A stretch of DNA of 45,735 nucleotides. Source: FCB group bacterium (GTDB lineage Bacteria > Fidelibacterota > Marinisomatia > Marinisomatales > JAADGP01). The stretch spans positions 1-45,735 of the forward strand of contig JAADGP010000028.1 in NCBI GenBank assembly GCA_013152315.1, given 5' to 3'. The notes beneath the pieces were generated by a model. The model did not search any database, was not told the DNA's origin, and saw only the letters and a list, made by a program, of their open reading frames with translations. This document shows, piece by piece, positions 31,128 through 40,078 of the stretch. How positions within the stretch are numbered: position 1 is the stretch's first letter; every line of letters begins with the position of its first letter. Position numbers and translations under genes: made by a program.

Positions 31128-31246
31128 GGTGTGAATTTACAATTATCCGTATGACAATTAAGATTTAAGATTTGCCCTTTCCCGATTTAATGCAACGTGT
31201 CGGAACGTAGTGGAGATCCCGATGGAGCGGAGCGACTGTCAGAGAA

Positions 31247-31260
31247 ACGTGATGCGTGAA
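31247..31260 (-). repeat. Two units of the 7-nt repeat (TTCACGC ATCACGT on minus strand)
   Basis: Same heptamer family as 2855-2924 and 42311-42338. Confidence 0.5.
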
Positions 31261-31314
31261 GCCTTTTTAAAATCGGTAATCTTCAATCAAAGATAGAAAA
31301 TCCTTCAAACCTTT

Positions 31315-31338: not shown

Positions 31339-31498
31339 ATAGATTAAATTGGCGAAATCGGGTATTCTATCCTGATTTATCAAGAAAATAATACGTTAAT
31401 TTTCATTTCCATAATATTGTTCAACATGGGGATATAGAAAATAAATACATTGTTTCTATAAGAAATGTTTTAACTTGTATTCAAGTAGGGAAAACTTT

Positions 31499-31630
31499 GT
31501 CGCCTTGCCCCGATTCGATCGGGGCACAGCGACTGTTTCTTTTGGTACTTTTCTTACGCTAAGAAAAGTACAAAGCGGCCTTGATTGTTGTTCAAAACTA
31601 TATTCTTTAACAACTTAACTTACCTCAATT
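31499..31630 (+). repeat. Nested-hairpin dispersed element, copy 1 (short apical arm)
   Basis: GTCGC-CTT-GCCCCGAT TCG ATCGGGGC-ACA-GCGAC followed by GTACTTTTCTTA CGC TAAGAAAAGTAC (31545-31571) and a conserved tail ending ACTTAACTTACCTCAATT. Confidence 0.8.
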
Positions 31631-31674
31631 CAATCACGGTTAATTTTTATATATGTGTTATTTAAAGTGAAATG

Positions 31675-32910
31675 TCAGTGAGAAATCAAAGAAACAACAC
31701 TGCTGTAAGCCAAATAACTGAATACCACCAGGGACAAGATTAAGAGCCCGTTCGTCAGCCATCCGTTCTTTAATTGGTTTACCCACTGTTTTTTATTATT
31801 CATAAACAGTAACGTGCCGGTTAAAAAAGGCATAAACAAGGAACCCATCACCGAATAAACGACAATAATCCAGATCGGTTTATTGATCAACAGCAAGATC
31901 ATCGGCGGGAACGCCAAATATGCCAGATACCCCCGATATAACAATGAATTTGTTTGGACCGATTTACTATCACCCGGTTTCGCTCCCGGACGTACCGTTT
32001 GGACAAAATCGGTAAACAGATAGGGAATCCCCTGCCAAACGCCGATCATGGACGTGAATACGGCGCACCAGAACCCGATCAGGAACAGGCTTTTTCCCAA
32101 TGGGCCAAGTACGGTCCCCAACTGCTCGGCCAGCGCCAGAATCATCCGGGTACCTTTAATCGCTTCCACATTAACCCCGCTGGCTATGATCATCATGGCT
32201 ATCCCAAACAATCCTGTCAAACCATAAGCGACGCCAAGGTCTAGTTTGACCATTTTATGCGCATTTGCACCGGTCCATTCTTTCTCGCGGATCCAATAGC
32301 CGTAGCTTAATAACGTAACGCTGCCGCCCACACCACCGATAACACCTAAAATAAACGCCCCCGACCCGGTCGGTACCGTGGGGATTACCAAAGACGAAAC
32401 CAGTACCTTCCATTCCGGGCGTATCAGGACGGCACAAAGAATGATTAACAAAAACATGGGAGCGATTAATACTTTCATTGTCTTTTCAAACAACGTGTAT
32501 CGACCGGTTAAAACGAGTACCAGGGCGGCTATGGAATGAATTATACCCCAGGCAGTTTCTGATAATCCGCCGAAGAGGGCTCTTCCCGCCAGTCCGCAGG
32601 CGGAAATCAAAGCTCCGGCCACAATGAAGGACCATAGCAACAGATACAACCCGAACACAATCGGAATAATAGAGTGCAATTTTTGCGACCACCCCTCAAT
32701 TAAGGTTAAACCGGTGGCCAATTGCCAACGCGCGATTCCTTCATTCATTACGAACTTTATGGCGGCGCCAAACACGGCGGCCCACAAAATAATGGTCCCA
32801 TATTTCGCTCCCGCAACCGAGGCGGCAATCATATCCCCGGCCCCGACACCCGTCGCGGCGATGGCAATCCCCGGTCCGATTAACGATAATGATAATCCTG
32901 GTCTCTTCAT
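31675..32910 (-). CDS. Divergent NRAMP-family transporter
   Basis: SLIGPGIAIAATGVGAGDMIAASVAGAKYG aligns ungapped to the NRAMP TM1 region; about 11 TM segments by eye. Confidence 0.85.
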   Translation of the reverse strand: MKRPGLSLSLIGPGIAIAATGVGAGDMIAASVAGAKYGTIILWAAVFGAAIKFVMNEGIARWQLATGLTLIEGWSQKLHSIIPIVFGLYLLLWSFIVAGALISACGLAGRALFGGLSETAWGIIHSIAALVLVLTGRYTLFEKTMKVLIAPMFLLIILCAVLIRPEWKVLVSSLVIPTVPTGSGAFILGVIGGVGGSVTLLSYGYWIREKEWTGANAHKMVKLDLGVAYGLTGLFGIAMMIIASGVNVEAIKGTRMILALAEQLGTVLGPLGKSLFLIGFWCAVFTSMIGVWQGIPYLFTDFVQTVRPGAKPGDSKSVQTNSLLYRGYLAYLAFPPMILLLINKPIWIIVVYSVMGSLFMPFLTGTLLFMNNKKQWVNQLKNGWLTNGLLILSLVVFSYLAYSSVVSLISH

Positions 32911-33067
32911 TTTGATTTACAAATCGATTATAGAATGTAAAATTACAAACGATTTTTTGATATTCATGAGTACTGTTATAAAAAACGTATGACTTACTCA
33001 GGATTCACGGGAAAAACGAAACCGGAAATTCCTGATAGTCCTGGTATTCTTGGGATTGAGATTATTC

Positions 33068-33946
33068 TCATTCAATCGAAAAGTAAGCCCATTCGGATTC
33101 ACCGCCGGACTCATCCAGCCCGGTTTTATTATCGACTTCACCAATGGCTTTTACTTTCCAACGGTACAATCCCGGAGACAATGTATCGACTTTCCCCTTA
33201 CAGGAAATCACGTTATCCGGCCAATTTTGAGAGCCGGCGGGAAAATAAGGAAACGGTATCGGCGTGGTATTTTCATAACCAAACCACACATTCGTAAAAC
33301 GACAGATCCATATGGCCTCAATGTTGTTAATATCGTACAATCTCTCCAGACGGATAACGTATTCATTGGAATAATAGTAATGGGAAGCCCGGTCCATCCA
33401 TTCAAAGATCACGTTTGAGTCCACGGATTCATTGACCGGCGCGTGCGGCAGCGGCGAATTAAGCAACAGGTAACTTACCGTATCGGACGGACGGCTTTCA
33501 TTTTCCGCCAAATCGACGGCAGTTAGGTAATAGAAATACCGAACATACGTGGACAAGCTGTCATCATAATACATCGTATCGGTCTCAATATTCTGAAACA
33601 GATCAATCATGGCTATCGGCCGAAATTCATTATCCGCCGTTGAATCGGCCCGGTAGACAATATAGCCTGATAAATCGTCTTCCGTATTAGGGCGCCACAT
33701 AAGAACGATCCGGTCTTTTCCCGCATTATCGGCATCGATCCCTTGCTCCACCCAATCTTCCGGATGAGACTTTTCCACCAGGACCGGTTTGGCCGGCGGA
33801 TACGGATCTTCCACCACATCGGGACACCCCGGAATAAGCAGCATGGTGAAGAAAATAATCACCAGTAACCGGACTATGGTTCTAATATGTGAATTTCGAA
33901 ATCGCATTTTTTGCCTATTCATTAATACTTTTTCTTTCAGGTCCAT
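33068..33946 (-). CDS. Lipoprotein with fibronectin type III-like segment
   Basis: Lipobox LLIPGC; DRIVLMWRPNTEDDLSGYIVYRADS and YFYYLTAVDLAENESRPSDTVSY are Fn3-like. Confidence 0.7.
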   Translation of the reverse strand: MDLKEKVLMNRQKMRFRNSHIRTIVRLLVIIFFTMLLIPGCPDVVEDPYPPAKPVLVEKSHPEDWVEQGIDADNAGKDRIVLMWRPNTEDDLSGYIVYRADSTADNEFRPIAMIDLFQNIETDTMYYDDSLSTYVRYFYYLTAVDLAENESRPSDTVSYLLLNSPLPHAPVNESVDSNVIFEWMDRASHYYYSNEYVIRLERLYDINNIEAIWICRFTNVWFGYENTTPIPFPYFPAGSQNWPDNVISCKGKVDTLSPGLYRWKVKAIGEVDNKTGLDESGGESEWAYFSIE

Positions 33947-34049
33947 GCTCCATTAATCGTATGTTATTAATTAATATTCTTTTATGTAACAAGTAGATAA
34001 AGAAGAGTTACCTTATTATTTTAAAAATAAAGTCACCCTATTTTACCTT

Positions 34050-34301
34050 GTCGCCTTGGAAAAATTCGGGATAAAGAGCGGAATTTTGCCGGAGGATAAG
34101 ACGGTTTTACTGTCTGACCCTGTGGAATTTTTATTCCACAGGGGAGTTTAAAACCGGCCCGGAGGCAAAGTTTCGCTCCCCTAATTTTTTTCCTCAGCGA
34201 CTGCTTCTTTTGGTCCTTTTCTTACGCTAAGAAAAGGACGAAGAGACTTTGATCGTAATTCGAGATATTGTTCCTTAGCCACTTAACTTGTCACCTCAAT
34301 T
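34050..34301 (+). repeat. Nested-hairpin dispersed element, copy 2 (long apical arm)
   Basis: GTCGC...GCGAC basal pairing, internal CCCTGTGGAAT TTTT ATTCCACAGGG (34118-34143), then GTCCTTTTCTTA CGC TAAGAAAAGGAC (34213-34239) and tail ACTTAACTTGTCACCTCAATT. Confidence 0.8.
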
Positions 34302-34379
34302 TTTTCGAAACCACAAGTAAGACAAATTTGTAAATCTCCCTACGCTCATTGAAGTGAGCGATAAATGTTAGTCATCAAT

Positions 34380-35378
34380 TTAAAATCCTACCCACCCCCC
34401 AATCCGATGGGCTTTACCCAAATCATGATTGGAAAAGCTGTAATCCAGGGAAACCGTTTTCCCCTTCCGTTGAAAAACCAGTCCCAGTCCGCATTGGATA
34501 TAATCACCGGTTAAACCGCCCCGAATGGAGATTTTATCGAAAAGTTCTCCCTCGAGCCCAAATTGAATTTCACGCGGATAAAGTGAATTTTGCTGTTCAA
34601 ATATGGCGATCTTCACCGGCCACCGATCAAACGACTGTTTATAACTGATCCCCGTTATCAGTTGCATGGGAATCAGGTCTTCTTTATTCGTATTCCAGTA
34701 TATTCGCGTCCCGGCAATATTGTTCAACGAAACGCCGGCGACAAGGTCTCCCAGCCAGTCAAAAGTAGATACCTGCTCCAGATTAACCATTATCATGGTC
34801 CCGATATCGATGCCCAGACCGATCCCCTGGATAGCATGGAGATTCTTACGTAATATTTTCACATTCATACCGAAGGGGATTTTTACCGGAAACGGGGCAA
34901 ATTGCCATCCCGGATCGATCGTTTTGGTAATATTTTTGGAAATATTAAAGGTTACGGCCGCCTCTATATCTTTGAAGGATCTAAACCCCTGTCTTACCAG
35001 GGCGCGAATGGAATCCCGACGCACGGCCAAATCCGTAACGTTTCGTAAATCCGGACGCTCCGGAATATTATCAACATAAAGCAACACCGTATTGACTCCC
35101 CACTGGTAATACTTATTTTTGGGAATTGAGACTCCCATGGATACATAATCGGCCAGGCCGAATTGATTAATAAACATTCCGGACAGAGTTGGTGACGGTG
35201 TGAATCCCGTTGCGGCGGGATTGACCAAATATCCCCCCGTATGTTGCGGCAAGGCCACTACCGCCCGCCCTAAGGCGATTGAACGCGGAGACGTTCCTAA
35301 GTTCAGGAACGCATCCGCGTAGCTGTTCTGCCCCTGTAAGCAGGTAATATAAATGCCAAGTAAAAATAAACGCTTCAT
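34380..35378 (-). CDS. PorV/PorQ-family outer-membrane protein (T9SS-associated)
   Basis: DAFLNLGTSPRSIALGRAVVALPQHTGGYLVNPAATGF typical of the PorV/PorQ family; ATGA overlap with upstream PorU-like gene. Confidence 0.8.
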   Translation of the reverse strand: MKRLFLLGIYITCLQGQNSYADAFLNLGTSPRSIALGRAVVALPQHTGGYLVNPAATGFTPSPTLSGMFINQFGLADYVSMGVSIPKNKYYQWGVNTVLLYVDNIPERPDLRNVTDLAVRRDSIRALVRQGFRSFKDIEAAVTFNISKNITKTIDPGWQFAPFPVKIPFGMNVKILRKNLHAIQGIGLGIDIGTMIMVNLEQVSTFDWLGDLVAGVSLNNIAGTRIYWNTNKEDLIPMQLITGISYKQSFDRWPVKIAIFEQQNSLYPREIQFGLEGELFDKISIRGGLTGDYIQCGLGLVFQRKGKTVSLDYSFSNHDLGKAHRIGGWVGF

Positions 35379-38300
35379 CGCGCCTTGGCCACTTTCCCGC
35401 GCCGTTCAATGACCGTTTTCCCTTTCCTGGCTTTCATCCGGTAAAAATAGACGCCGTTGGCGACAAAGTCACCGTTGGCGCTGCGACCATCCCAGATTAT
35501 TTCATGATAAGCGCCCGCACGCGGGTCCAGGTCGGTCAAAGTGGAAGCCGTGGTAAAATTGCGAATTCGCCGGCCGGCCACGGTATAAATCTCCAGGCTG
35601 AATTCATCCACCGTTTCGGTTAATTCATAAGCGAACCGGGTCTGGTCCTTAAAAGGATTGGGGTAATTTCCATAATCGATCAAATCCAGCTTCTCCCGCA
35701 CAATAAATTCCAGACGGAGTGTATCGGAGGGATTGCCCGTGGCATCGTGGACCACCACGGCCAGAGTGGAATCCATAACCGTGAAAGTCGGGCTCAATTG
35801 TACCCCTAAAATGTTCGGTTTGCCATTTACCTGCGAAATAATTTCCTTCCCGGCTTCCCGATTGTTGATCCATATATCAATTGATGGCGACCGGTGGTCG
35901 ATTCCATTGTGATCCTGCACGGTGAGGGCAATTAATGGCGACGCGCTTACATAGCCGTCATGCAGAAAGCGTTGACCATTAACAGTGGCCTCTATACGGG
36001 GCGGAACGACATCGCCGGAAACAAAAAAGGCATATTTCCCGGAACCCGATCCGGTGAACCGAAGCAGGGAATCGGACAGAATACGCATTTCAACCGGCAA
36101 CCAGGTGTCAAATTCATCATAGAACCGAAAAAGACGGGTTTGTTCGGTTACGCCGTTAGGCACTGTCCACGATACGGTATACTCATCCCCGGTATCCGAA
36201 ACGATTTCGAGGCCCAGGCGCCGCGGATCGAGCGTATCGGGAACAAATTCCGGTTGAGTAATGGGCGCCGCGACCTGCAAATTTCGCAGCGTGATAACAA
36301 AAGAAGCGCTTACCGTCCCCGATGGAATTTCAAGTCCAACGCCCCCGAGCCCGACAATACCGTGGGAACTCAGGTTTTCGGTCGTTCCCAACTCGGGAGT
36401 AACCCAAAAGGCGGGGGTTTCCAGGACAGCAATTAAGGTGTCATTGTTCCGGTCGGACAACGGTTCATCGGCCGTAGTGATCACCCGGTAAGTTTGGATT
36501 CCCACCGGGAAAGCACCGGAAACAGCAGCCGACGACTTTCCTTTGCCGGTAAAATACAATGAATCTACCCCCAGTGATTTCCAGGCACCGGATACTTCGC
36601 GCTGAAATTCCACGGTTACCTCCCCGGCGCCGCCGGTAAGGTTTTGCACCCCGGCCTGCAGGGAAATACGCTCGTCAACCACAAACCGCATGTCGACCGG
36701 TTTCATGTCCGGCAATTGGGCAATCTTCACCTGTTTTTCCGGACTGAAAGCAACGTTGCCCTGTCCATCCACTACGCGACTTTGCAAGCTGATAATACTC
36801 CCGGGAGGCTGAGGCGGAAGCGGTGTTTCCAGTTCGAATTCATGATCTCCAACGCCAATCATATTCGATCGAAATGACCCGTTTACCCATAATTGCACGG
36901 AATCGATCCCCTGGCGATCCTGCGCCCTTGTTCTGACCCGGATCGAATCCGCGGCCGTCGGCCGAGCGGGCGAAACTTCCATGATCTGCACCAGAGAACC
37001 GGACACCGTCATTGCCGCCCCCGACCGGTAGAGACTTCCTTGTTTTTTGTACGCCACATTGATCCGATGCCGGCCGGGATTGAGGGTATCGGGCATTTCA
37101 TAGGTAATGGAAGGACCCCCTCCGTCCGGAATCCAACGACGGTCCACCGGGAAAAGTCGGTCGTCATAAATTGCCAAAGTCAGGGAATCCACCCCGGAAT
37201 AGGCCAATGTTAACTGAAGCGCCGTTCCCGGTTCCGGATCCGCGGGTACCACTGTCAGTTCCGTCGGAAGCGGCCTGCGCAAAACAAGCGCCGGATCACC
37301 GGTCAGGTTGAATTGATAAACCTGGGAAACGGCAATATCCGGGAAATCGTCATTAGCAGCCAGAAACTCGATTTTGGCCTGGTTAATCATTTCTCCGATA
37401 CCCATTTCCCGCTCGGAAAAAATCAGCCGCTGTAACGGTTGAAGGAGCAAATAGTCATTAATGATCCAGCCCACCCCGGCGCTGCCGAACCAGGCCACGG
37501 CGCCACCGTTTTCAAATGACATCATCCGCCGGCCCAAAGCATTCGGATTGGTTACGTCACCGGTGAAGCAGGTCATGCTGGTTACAAACGGCTGTTTGGT
37601 GCCGTTTGCCAGGGATTCAAGGTCTTCCAGGGTAAAAAGCGATCGGTCGCCCCATACGGCGCCGCCCCCATGGCCGAAAAAATTCACATAGCTCACTCCC
37701 CGGTTAAAATAAGCCAACAAGGAATCCGTGTTGCCGAAGAAAACGCCGCCTTCGGAATATTTATCGATATACAATCGGGTTGGGAAATAATCCTGCTCGA
37801 TGATCCTTCGAATCAGGGTTTCCGACTGGTCCTTAAAAGTCGTTTCGTATCCCCCGATCATTAATACATTATTCTCCCAGGACTGAAAATCCCGGGTCAG
37901 GTAGGTCAGCGTCTTGGCAACCATAGTCTCCAGTTCTTCCCGGTTGCGGGCCGGAAACCGGCCGATGGCAAATTCGGGGACCAGATCGTCGCCTTCCACG
38001 TTTGCGAACCAGAAATCGGAAGCGACCGCGCCGAAACCCACGGTCTGAATTTTCATGGCCGGAATAAAATCACCGGCAGGGCCGGCTCCGCCGCCAAAAC
38101 CGAACCATTTGCCCTGCAGGGCGATTAAAACCGCTTCCGGTCGCGGGGTCCAATTCCGGTAAGCATCCGTTAAAAATGATTTAATTGCGTAAGGTGTGGT
38201 CACACCCCCGGAATATTGCCGATAAATATCTTCGACGTCGATTATCACACCATTATGGTAAACGGCCAAAGGTTCGAGTACGGTCCGGAAAGAATCGGGA

Positions 38301-40078
38301 GCGATAATCACATACGATTTCCCACCTGACGGCAGGTTCGGTTCCAGCGGATCCGCCGGCGTTATGTGCGCGACGGTTCTTAATTTGCTTTCTTCAAAAG
38401 CATGGTATTCCGGCGCTTCGCCGCTGATATAGTCCTGCAAAACGGCGGTATAGGTCTGGTCCCGCGTGTCGCGGACTACAATAAAATCCTGCAAACGTGA
38501 CACACCCGCTTTAAAAATGTAAATCCGCGGGCTGGAGAATCCGCTCACTTCGAACTGGGTTATTACCGGTAGTTTACCGTCCCGCGTAAAAACAATTTCA
38601 TCTTCATAAGCCGCATACTGACGATTAAACGTGACTTCAATCCAGTTCAGGTACACCTGGTCATAGCGGTTGGATTGATCGGCATTCTCCAGGTTCAGGA
38701 TGGTCACCGTGTTTTTTCCTGGTCGCAGATAATCCTGTCCCTGGCCGCCGTTTAAACGAAAGGACTGTTGACCGGTCCAGGAAGCGTTTCCGATTAAACG
38801 ATCATTAAACAGAAACTGGATTTTGTGAGTACTCGCGGTTATCCCCTGGATTTCCAATTGGACTTTAAAATCCAGGGTATTTGAAATTTCAGGATTGGGC
38901 AACACAATCTCAAAATCCACCGCGGTCCCGGCATGGACGGGGGGCGTCATAAAGAAATGATCGAAGGTGTCCCATTGCCGGTGCAGTCCCATGCTTCCGA
39001 GACGGTCGAAATATTCGTCCCGTTCGATATGTTCGCTGTAGGCATAGGTGGTCGGACGAAACACCTGGTCCGGCGGCCGATCGGGATAGGCGCTTTCGGG
39101 TAAATAACGGAGACCCCGCTCTGCGCCCCAGGTTAACCAGTACACATTTTCAGCGGTGTAAAAATTATTCCGGTACGGCGCGCCTTCCGGGGCCGGATTC
39201 CTTTCACCATAAAAGATGATCCGGTCGCCGGTATCAAAGGAACCGTCTTCTTCTCCTTCGATAAACAGCAGGATTTCCTTCTCCCGGTTCCAGAGCCGGA
39301 AAGTTCGCGGATCGACGCCGCGCAAAGACAGGCCGCTGTCGGCCAGTTCGGACTTAGTGAGGGCATACCAACCGGTGGTATCCAGGGTGATCCGGGCAAT
39401 ATTTTCAGAGAATTGATAGGCGGGGATGGAATGATTAAAGCCCTTTGCCCGTTCCCGCCGTTGAGGATTGAGATCTTTCAAACGGGTGCGCGATAATAAT
39501 CGAGGAATAAAAACACGGTCAATAGCTTCCCAGGTCAAGCGGATCGTCAGCCGGTTTGTCCATTGTAAATGGTTATTTTCATACCGAACCGGGAAGATCT
39601 TTATTACACTTGCCTGTTGGGGATCAATTGACTTCGTCGAATGAAGGAAGACAGGTTTGGAGGGGAATTTACCCCCTGACCACTCTGTAACGGGTTTTTG
39701 GAAGTTTATTCCCTTAGCGGCTTCAACTCCGGCGATAACCGGTGTAATTGCCGATATCTTTCGGGTCTTACCGGAAAATATCTGTATAGTCGCCGTCGCC
39801 GGGACGCCTACCAACACTTCCGAAATAACAGGCAAAACCGGGAAACCGGGTTTTTGGTATTCCGGTAATACGGGGAAAGAACGGATGTGATTATTTTGGT
39901 CAAACCATATGGAATCTATTGACACTTCCAGAATTAGAGTGCCGGGTCGGCTGAGTTTTACCTGAACAGGTATTTCTGCTAAACCAAATGCGGCTAAACC
40001 AAAAAAATACAGCAGCCCGGTACAAATTAACCGGGCAAGATTGGAGGTCTTCCCGGGATTAAATACTCCTGACTGCAT
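35375..40078 (-). CDS. C25-family cysteine peptidase, T9SS sortase PorU-like, with C-terminal FlgD/T9SS type A-like domain
   Basis: Catalytic region VSYVNFFGHGGGAVWGDRSLFTLEDLESLANGTKQPFVTSMTCFTGDVTNP; C-terminus YGNYPNPFKDQTRFAYELTETVDEFSLEIYTVAGRRI...GVYFYRMKARKGKTVIERRGKV. Confidence 0.88.
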   Translation of the reverse strand: MQSGVFNPGKTSNLARLICTGLLYFFGLAAFGLAEIPVQVKLSRPGTLILEVSIDSIWFDQNNHIRSFPVLPEYQKPGFPVLPVISEVLVGVPATATIQIFSGKTRKISAITPVIAGVEAAKGINFQKPVTEWSGGKFPSKPVFLHSTKSIDPQQASVIKIFPVRYENNHLQWTNRLTIRLTWEAIDRVFIPRLLSRTRLKDLNPQRRERAKGFNHSIPAYQFSENIARITLDTTGWYALTKSELADSGLSLRGVDPRTFRLWNREKEILLFIEGEEDGSFDTGDRIIFYGERNPAPEGAPYRNNFYTAENVYWLTWGAERGLRYLPESAYPDRPPDQVFRPTTYAYSEHIERDEYFDRLGSMGLHRQWDTFDHFFMTPPVHAGTAVDFEIVLPNPEISNTLDFKVQLEIQGITASTHKIQFLFNDRLIGNASWTGQQSFRLNGGQGQDYLRPGKNTVTILNLENADQSNRYDQVYLNWIEVTFNRQYAAYEDEIVFTRDGKLPVITQFEVSGFSSPRIYIFKAGVSRLQDFIVVRDTRDQTYTAVLQDYISGEAPEYHAFEESKLRTVAHITPADPLEPNLPSGGKSYVIIAPDSFRTVLEPLAVYHNGVIIDVEDIYRQYSGGVTTPYAIKSFLTDAYRNWTPRPEAVLIALQGKWFGFGGGAGPAGDFIPAMKIQTVGFGAVASDFWFANVEGDDLVPEFAIGRFPARNREELETMVAKTLTYLTRDFQSWENNVLMIGGYETTFKDQSETLIRRIIEQDYFPTRLYIDKYSEGGVFFGNTDSLLAYFNRGVSYVNFFGHGGGAVWGDRSLFTLEDLESLANGTKQPFVTSMTCFTGDVTNPNALGRRMMSFENGGAVAWFGSAGVGWIINDYLLLQPLQRLIFSEREMGIGEMINQAKIEFLAANDDFPDIAVSQVYQFNLTGDPALVLRRPLPTELTVVPADPEPGTALQLTLAYSGVDSLTLAIYDDRLFPVDRRWIPDGGGPSITYEMPDTLNPGRHRINVAYKKQGSLYRSGAAMTVSGSLVQIMEVSPARPTAADSIRVRTRAQDRQGIDSVQLWVNGSFRSNMIGVGDHEFELETPLPPQPPGSIISLQSRVVDGQGNVAFSPEKQVKIAQLPDMKPVDMRFVVDERISLQAGVQNLTGGAGEVTVEFQREVSGAWKSLGVDSLYFTGKGKSSAAVSGAFPVGIQTYRVITTADEPLSDRNNDTLIAVLETPAFWVTPELGTTENLSSHGIVGLGGVGLEIPSGTVSASFVITLRNLQVAAPITQPEFVPDTLDPRRLGLEIVSDTGDEYTVSWTVPNGVTEQTRLFRFYDEFDTWLPVEMRILSDSLLRFTGSGSGKYAFFVSGDVVPPRIEATVNGQRFLHDGYVSASPLIALTVQDHNGIDHRSPSIDIWINNREAGKEIISQVNGKPNILGVQLSPTFTVMDSTLAVVVHDATGNPSDTLRLEFIVREKLDLIDYGNYPNPFKDQTRFAYELTETVDEFSLEIYTVAGRRIRNFTTASTLTDLDPRAGAYHEIIWDGRSANGDFVANGVYFYRMKARKGKTVIERRGKVAKAR

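Follow-up and report, generated by a model that had tools for sequence, protein, structure and literature searches.

The locus and its two element copies

The window analysed here, a stretch of 45,735 nucleotides, belongs to the genome of a Candidatus Neomarinimicrobiota MAG (G000). Two copies of a hairpin element in the same orientation had been predicted at 31499-31630 and 34050-34301, and both are present there. Pfam identifies a peptide chain release factor gene to the left of copy 1 and an NRAMP gene between the two copies; both copies lie antisense to their adjacent genes. Nothing ties the release factor or the NRAMP gene to the element, and the flanking of the NRAMP/Fn3 pair, which the original prediction had singled out, is incidental, since the genome holds about 19 copies. 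A repeat search of the window found that 31527-31621 and 34195-34289 form a direct repeat of 95 nt with 80% identity, and that the GTCGCCTTG start occurs at both 31499 and 34050. The 12-bp hairpins described for the two copies are exact, and the A-T to C-G change that distinguishes them is genuinely compensatory: of the 19 G000 copies, 9 have C-G here, 7 have A-T and 2 have T-A, and in one the pair is broken. Measured against 200 dinucleotide shuffles, both copies fold much more stably, with z values of -6.3 and -8.6, the latter for copy 2 with its long arm.

Table 1. Features of the two element copies in the window (S1 and S2, stems of the predicted pseudoknot; L1, its pyrimidine loop).
Feature	Position	Strand	Sequence and basis
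Copy 1, MITE insertion	31364-31678	+	Left end degenerate, right end ...GAAATGTCAG; orthologous G001 site 18 nt against 311; right TIR aligned with other copies
Copy 1, basal helix	31499-31533	+	GTCGC (31499-31503) / GCGAC (31529-31533); comparison with long-arm copies
Copy 1, 8-bp palindrome stem inside basal helix	31507-31514 / 31518-31525	+	GCCCCGAT / ATCGGGGC; occupies the position of the long arm
Copy 1, putative S1 5' strand	31528-31531	+	AGCG, pairing with CGCT (31557-31560); basis, covarying S1 of other bacteria; only 4 bp here
Copy 1, loop L1	31537-31545	+	TTCTTTTGG; predicted triplex third strand; L1 length tracks S2 length
Copy 1, stem S2	31545-31571	+	GTACTTTTCTTA / TAAGAAAAGTAC; loop contains S1 3' strand
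Copy 2, MITE insertion	33962-34371	+	Left end degenerate, right end ...AAATGTTAG; orthologous G001 site 16 nt against 410
Copy 2, long apical arm	34050-34201	+	Closed by GTCGC (34050-34054) / GCGAC (34197-34201); consensus fold
Copy 2, conserved internal loop	34111-34148	+	TGTCTGA (34111-34117) ... GAGTT (34144-34148), surrounding the variable hairpin CCCTGTGG..CCACAGGG
Copy 2, putative S1 5' strand	34196-34199	+	AGCG, pairing with CGCT (34225-34228); basis, comparison
Copy 2, loop L1	34205-34213	+	TTCTTTTGG; predicted third strand
Copy 2, stem S2	34213-34239	+	GTCCTTTTCTTA / TAAGAAAAGGAC; exact hairpin

Two further features of the neighbourhood were noted in passing. A second short repeat, TCGGAACGTAGTGGAGATCCCGATGGAGCGGAGCGACTGTCAGAGA, occupies 31193-31262 with AACGTG direct repeats on both sides; it is absent at the orthologous site of the genus-mate G001 and has about 20 relatives elsewhere in that genome. 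A 1567-aa protein with a Peptidase_C25 domain (35375-40078) adjoins a 332-aa protein without a Pfam match (34380-35378), and these neighbours resemble the PorU/PorV pair of type IX secretion.

A family of MITEs

Alignment of the copies revealed conservation well past the limits originally given, up to inverted repeats CTATCATTTCTCAT... and CTGACATTTCTCATTT...; the copies are not bare hairpin elements but inserted MITEs that have terminal repeats of their own. The extent first proposed was therefore too short, 311 bp and 410 bp being inserted relative to the empty sites. A genome-wide search, which had been suggested as a check, yielded about 19 family copies in G000, all 19 of them intergenic and in mixed orientation to neighbouring genes, with sizes of 290-430 bp and the TIR CTRWCATTTCTCAY at both ends of well-kept copies. 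Direct repeats of at least 6 bp (6-7 bp) flank 6 of the 12 scorable copies, against a mean of 0.75 with shuffled flanks, and none of 5000 shuffles reached 6; target-site duplications are thus found in the family, but the window copies are too degenerate to display any. Both window insertions are missing in G001, where 18 and 16 nt lie between the corresponding neighbour genes in place of 311 and 410, so that each would represent either an insertion in the window lineage or a precise loss in G001. In another family of the same order (f3, in G003 and G016), the same core lies between different TIRs, CTCAWGTTTCGCACAT; 6-7 bp repeats flank 3 of its 7 copies, with a summed match reached by 1 of 3000 shuffles. 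Taken as a whole, sequence comparison gives good support to mobility and to the assignment as a non-autonomous MITE of Neomarinimicrobiota.

A TIR search of G000 and G001 for a parent element yielded only short elements among those inspected, and a transposase was not found. The 5' arm of S2 has been lost in 8 of the 19 G000 copies, with mini-palindromes in its position, and two near-identical G001 copies also carry a broken S2 without this arm, so the MITE has been able to spread recently with no pseudoknot in cis. Mini-palindromes such as TCCCGCC..GGCGGGA, CCCCGAT..ATCGGGG and CCTGTCCGCCGACAGG replace or interrupt element arms at L004, L008, L011, L014, L015, L017, L018, L019, L078, L380 and L384, a pattern that looks like palindrome exchange or a preference of palindromes for inserting into hairpins.

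A predicted pseudoknot with covarying stems

The element had been described as a nested hairpin. Judged by comparison among bacteria, the distal hairpin is instead stem 2 (S2) of an H-type pseudoknot, the loop of which is not free but can pair with AGCG just upstream (S1). In carriers outside Neomarinimicrobiota, the hairpin loop is complementary to the bases just 5' of TTCTTTTGG, and both change together, giving pairs such as TGTCC/GGACA, GTGGCC/GGCCAC, TCGCC/GGCGA, GGCCACC/GGTGGCC and GTGGTC/GACCAC, among others. Over 62 distinct loops, S1 pairing averaged 3.74 Watson-Crick base pairs, against 2.44 +/- 0.12 when upstream and loop sequences were re-paired, and none of 2000 re-pairings was as high. 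The mean rose to 4.74 when G-U pairs were allowed and to 4.00, a gain of 0.26, when A-C pairs, equivalent to G-U on the opposite strand, were allowed; wobble pairs of the G-U kind on one strand only indicate that the strand as written here is the folding one. In a gap-free alignment of 22 distinct sequences, from which four copies with a poor or shifted S1 were left out (two from Paraburkholderia and two of another type), 97.2% of cells were paired, all 5 S1 pairs had changed on both sides, and the covariation score was 0.353, compared with 0.100 for shuffled alignments and at most 0.069 for slid controls.

This covariation comes from other bacteria and is weak by itself within Neomarinimicrobiota, where S1 has no more than 4 bp, and the S1 proposed for the window (AGCG/CGCT) rests on comparison with those bacteria. 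In the window, S1 overlaps the basal GTCGC/GCGAC helix and the two are partly mutually exclusive; the basal helix, originally drawn as a plain enclosing stem, thus competes with S1 in the window copies. At two other loci (L230 and L054), the S2 loop contains GCGAC, which at L230 is complementary to the far-off GTCGC with which the arm begins, and S1 may form there with another partner. A second crossing pseudoknot also seems to follow just 3' of the first in many gammaproteobacterial copies (L317, L335, L336, L339 and L351), for example CTCGCC/GGCGAG crossed by ATCGGG/CCCGAT.

The loop L1, TTCTTTTGG, contains TTCTTTT and mirrors the pyrimidine arm of S2. Parallel pyrimidine-motif triples on AAGAAAA require such a mirror sequence. 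When the search pattern left the length of L1 free, three-T stems had a three-T L1 in 40 of 40 cases and four-T stems a four-T L1 in 42 of 42 (82/82 together); with a descriptor lacking any L1 requirement, the lengths agreed in 90 of 93 hairpins with a recognisable L1, with one 5/5 case. Because L1 both mirrors the S2 arm and agrees with it in length, it is likely to be the third strand of a major-groove triple helix with S2. Three-T and four-T forms occur together in single genomes, and an element can even have one form at each end. They may be old paralogous lineages, in which case the independent length changes would be fewer than these counts. The 3/3, 4/4 and 5/5 cases seen in unrelated viral contigs (L043, L046 and L047) argue for more than one such change. 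A perfect mirror repeat, TTCTTTT..TTTTCTT, is at the same time a signature of H-DNA, and action at the level of duplex DNA, as H-DNA or as a cruciform, could be imagined; we regard this as very improbable, since extrusion from a duplex favours neither strand, yet wobbles are retained on just one of them, and S1 pairing plays no part in H-DNA.

Upstream of the pseudoknot lies the apical arm. Its consensus fold, derived from long-arm copies (10 Neomarinimicrobial-type sequences), has compensatory changes in 26 of 60 pairs. Its unpaired motifs are conserved, among them TGTYTGAG...GAGTT, an internal loop shared with Gammaproteobacteria. There, too, the motif stands 47-162 nt upstream of pseudoknots; it was found upstream of 39 of 143 pseudoknots and downstream of none, against a shuffled expectation of 0.25. 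The arm was rightly thought modular: hairpin tips are exchangeable, and copy 1 has a short palindrome in place of the long arm. Selection for structure, likewise proposed at the outset, agrees with the many copies, their compensatory changes, and covariation within both Neomarinimicrobiota and Gammaproteobacteria.

Distribution in other bacteria

Named relatives among the contig matches are almost all Candidatus Neomarinimicrobiota; matches in a Calditrichota and a Gammaproteobacteria MAG (L081 and L084) resemble close relatives of Neomarinimicrobial copies and may be binning errors. Outside this phylum, the hairpin, and with it the pseudoknot, occurs in Pseudomonadota (Burkholderia, Paraburkholderia, Pasteurella, Aeromonas, Pseudoalteromonas and Variovorax) and in Ilyobacter (Fusobacteriota), with a variant form in Parabacteroides (Bacteroidota). 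It was present in 12 of 229 sampled Gammaproteobacteria genomes, where a reversed control pattern had 0 matches, and no match was obtained in the E. coli genomes searched. Partial matches in Helicobacter phages, a Leptospira plasmid, a Fusobacterium plasmid and a microvirus were set aside as chance, those opened having no hairpin, as were most viral contigs with TTCTTTTGGTNCTTTTCTT, which have no 3' arm.

The core thus recurs with different surroundings in distantly related bacteria. This recurrence bears on another reading, that of an ordinary MITE whose hairpins are transcription terminators or neutral relics conserved by recent common descent. Palindromes are frequent in MITEs and S2 is broken in 8 of 19 copies, as that reading would have it, but S1, S2 and the arm have compensatory changes across independent lineages, the core is shared between unrelated flanks and with other phyla, and neither window copy has a terminator-like site (a G+C-rich stem followed by a T run), and a terminator role was rejected. 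We therefore consider an ordinary MITE improbable.

In Paraburkholderia and several Gammaproteobacteria, pseudoknots form inverted, outward-facing pairs 0.4-2 kb apart. At L301, L312 and L345 (G372), inverted pseudoknots 1-2 kb apart surround single cargo ORFs, a membrane protein and a methyltransferase-like protein, suggesting gene-carrying two-ended elements.

Proposed mechanism and function

We propose that the element is a MITE carrying a conserved, strand-specific structured module, the arm followed by a triplex pseudoknot, which probably acts as RNA. Its structure and mobility are well supported, and the functional steps given here are inferred. A transposase recognising the TIRs would move the element in trans, making 6-7 bp target duplications. 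The payload would consist of the arm with its conserved internal loops and then the H-type pseudoknot, in which the pyrimidine loop would lie in the S2 major groove as a U.A-U / C+.G-C triple helix. Once transcribed, the module could form a very stable fold, either RNase-resistant or protein-binding, that selection may have kept across hosts and across different mobile bodies. Against this proposal stand the single promoter-like match in the two copies, a weak one that faces the other way in copy 2, the mixed orientation of copies to neighbouring genes, and the antisense placement of both window copies.

The same fold could in principle work as single-stranded DNA: as a strand is transferred, its fold would be recognised by a transposase, relaxase or replication protein, in the manner of HUH transposition or integron attC sites. 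A strand-specific structure also fits this, each strand of a two-ended element has a pseudoknot close to its 3' end in the inverted pairs of Paraburkholderia and several Gammaproteobacteria, and Y1_Tnp genes were present in all six carriers tested, though also in 5 of 14 control genomes. However, 6 of the 7 inspected Y1_Tnp loci had no pseudoknot within about 1.5 kb, and at the seventh a MITE has inserted next to a Y1 gene, which has palindromes of its own. Neomarinimicrobial copies, moreover, have ordinary TIRs, target duplications and a single central pseudoknot. Both the proportion of G-U pairs and the presence of conserved internal loops are more typical of RNA. Action as single-stranded DNA thus appears unlikely, if less so than the readings discussed above, and action as RNA is favoured because of the G-U content, the conserved internal loops, an overlapping Burkholderia sRNA and the absence of a link to HUH transposases at the loci inspected. 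Some caution on RNA-level action is called for by the outward-facing pairs of Proteobacteria, which could be a feature of transposon ends.

More broadly, and with somewhat less than even confidence, we suggest that the core is a previously undescribed pan-bacterial structured RNA domain, an internal-loop arm with a triple-helix pseudoknot, that serves as a common module of unrelated small mobile elements, including two-ended cargo units, and gives a conserved advantage to them or their transcripts. The element could account for part of the Rfam motif TwoAYGGAY and of the sRNA Bp1_684, and would suggest that MITEs can bear a conserved structured payload and are not mere deletion relics. The strong covariation makes the pseudoknot directly testable.

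Comparison with known RNAs and mobile elements

An Rfam gathering scan of the window and an E-value scan of copy 2 returned nothing relevant, and among Rfam 15 families none was found to include the pseudoknot. Searches of the open literature by core sequence and by concept found no bacterial paper describing the core; subscription papers were outside their scope. A Nature Genetics 2025 paper that refers often to pseudoknots deals with other RNAs.

The TwoAYGGAY RNA motif (Rfam RF01731) was listed in 2010 without a function (PMC2864571). In Pseudoalteromonas (L263, above the cut-off) and Aeromonas (L262, just below it), its model matches immediately 5' of the pseudoknot, and the motif is there the apical arm of the pseudoknot-bearing unit. 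The Rfam match ends before the pseudoknot, however, and the two AYGGAY loops are missing from the Neomarinimicrobial arm; at the model's cut-off there was no match in the window, G000, G001 or G003. Bp1_684 (Rfam RF02421) is a Burkholderia sRNA listed as validated by RT-PCR and reported in several phyla, for which a trans-acting role was suggested without a mechanism (PMC3521395). In Burkholderia cepacia (L260), its overlap with one pseudoknot copy takes in the 3' arm of S2 and the hairpin that follows, but its model has no S1, L1 or 5' arm and hence does not describe the pseudoknot.

Among mobile elements, the REP/REPIN elements of RAYT transposases (PMC3733652) are likewise extragenic palindromes found across many phyla, sometimes as inverted pairs. 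The present core differs in its A+T-rich stem and pseudoknot and in having no GTAG or CGTC tag, and at the seven Y1 loci inspected the pseudoknot is unlinked to Y1 genes save for one chance insertion, so a REP/REPIN-RAYT origin was rejected. With prokaryotic MITEs, the element shares its short length, intergenic location, TIRs, 6-7 bp target duplications and empty sites in a relative; it differs from them in its structured core, which is found again in other phyla and with unrelated TIRs on either side.

H-type triplex pseudoknots are present in telomerase RNA and in the SAM-II and preQ1-II riboswitches, and to our knowledge natural bacterial triple-helix pseudoknots come mainly from riboswitches. 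The present element, if the predicted fold is correct, would provide a second setting for them, one that is repeated, mobile and spread over several phyla. It resembles those RNAs in having a pyrimidine L1 that is predicted to occupy the major groove of S2, itself rich in A-U pairs, and differs from them in being intergenic, mobile and multi-copy, with no fixed regulatory position.
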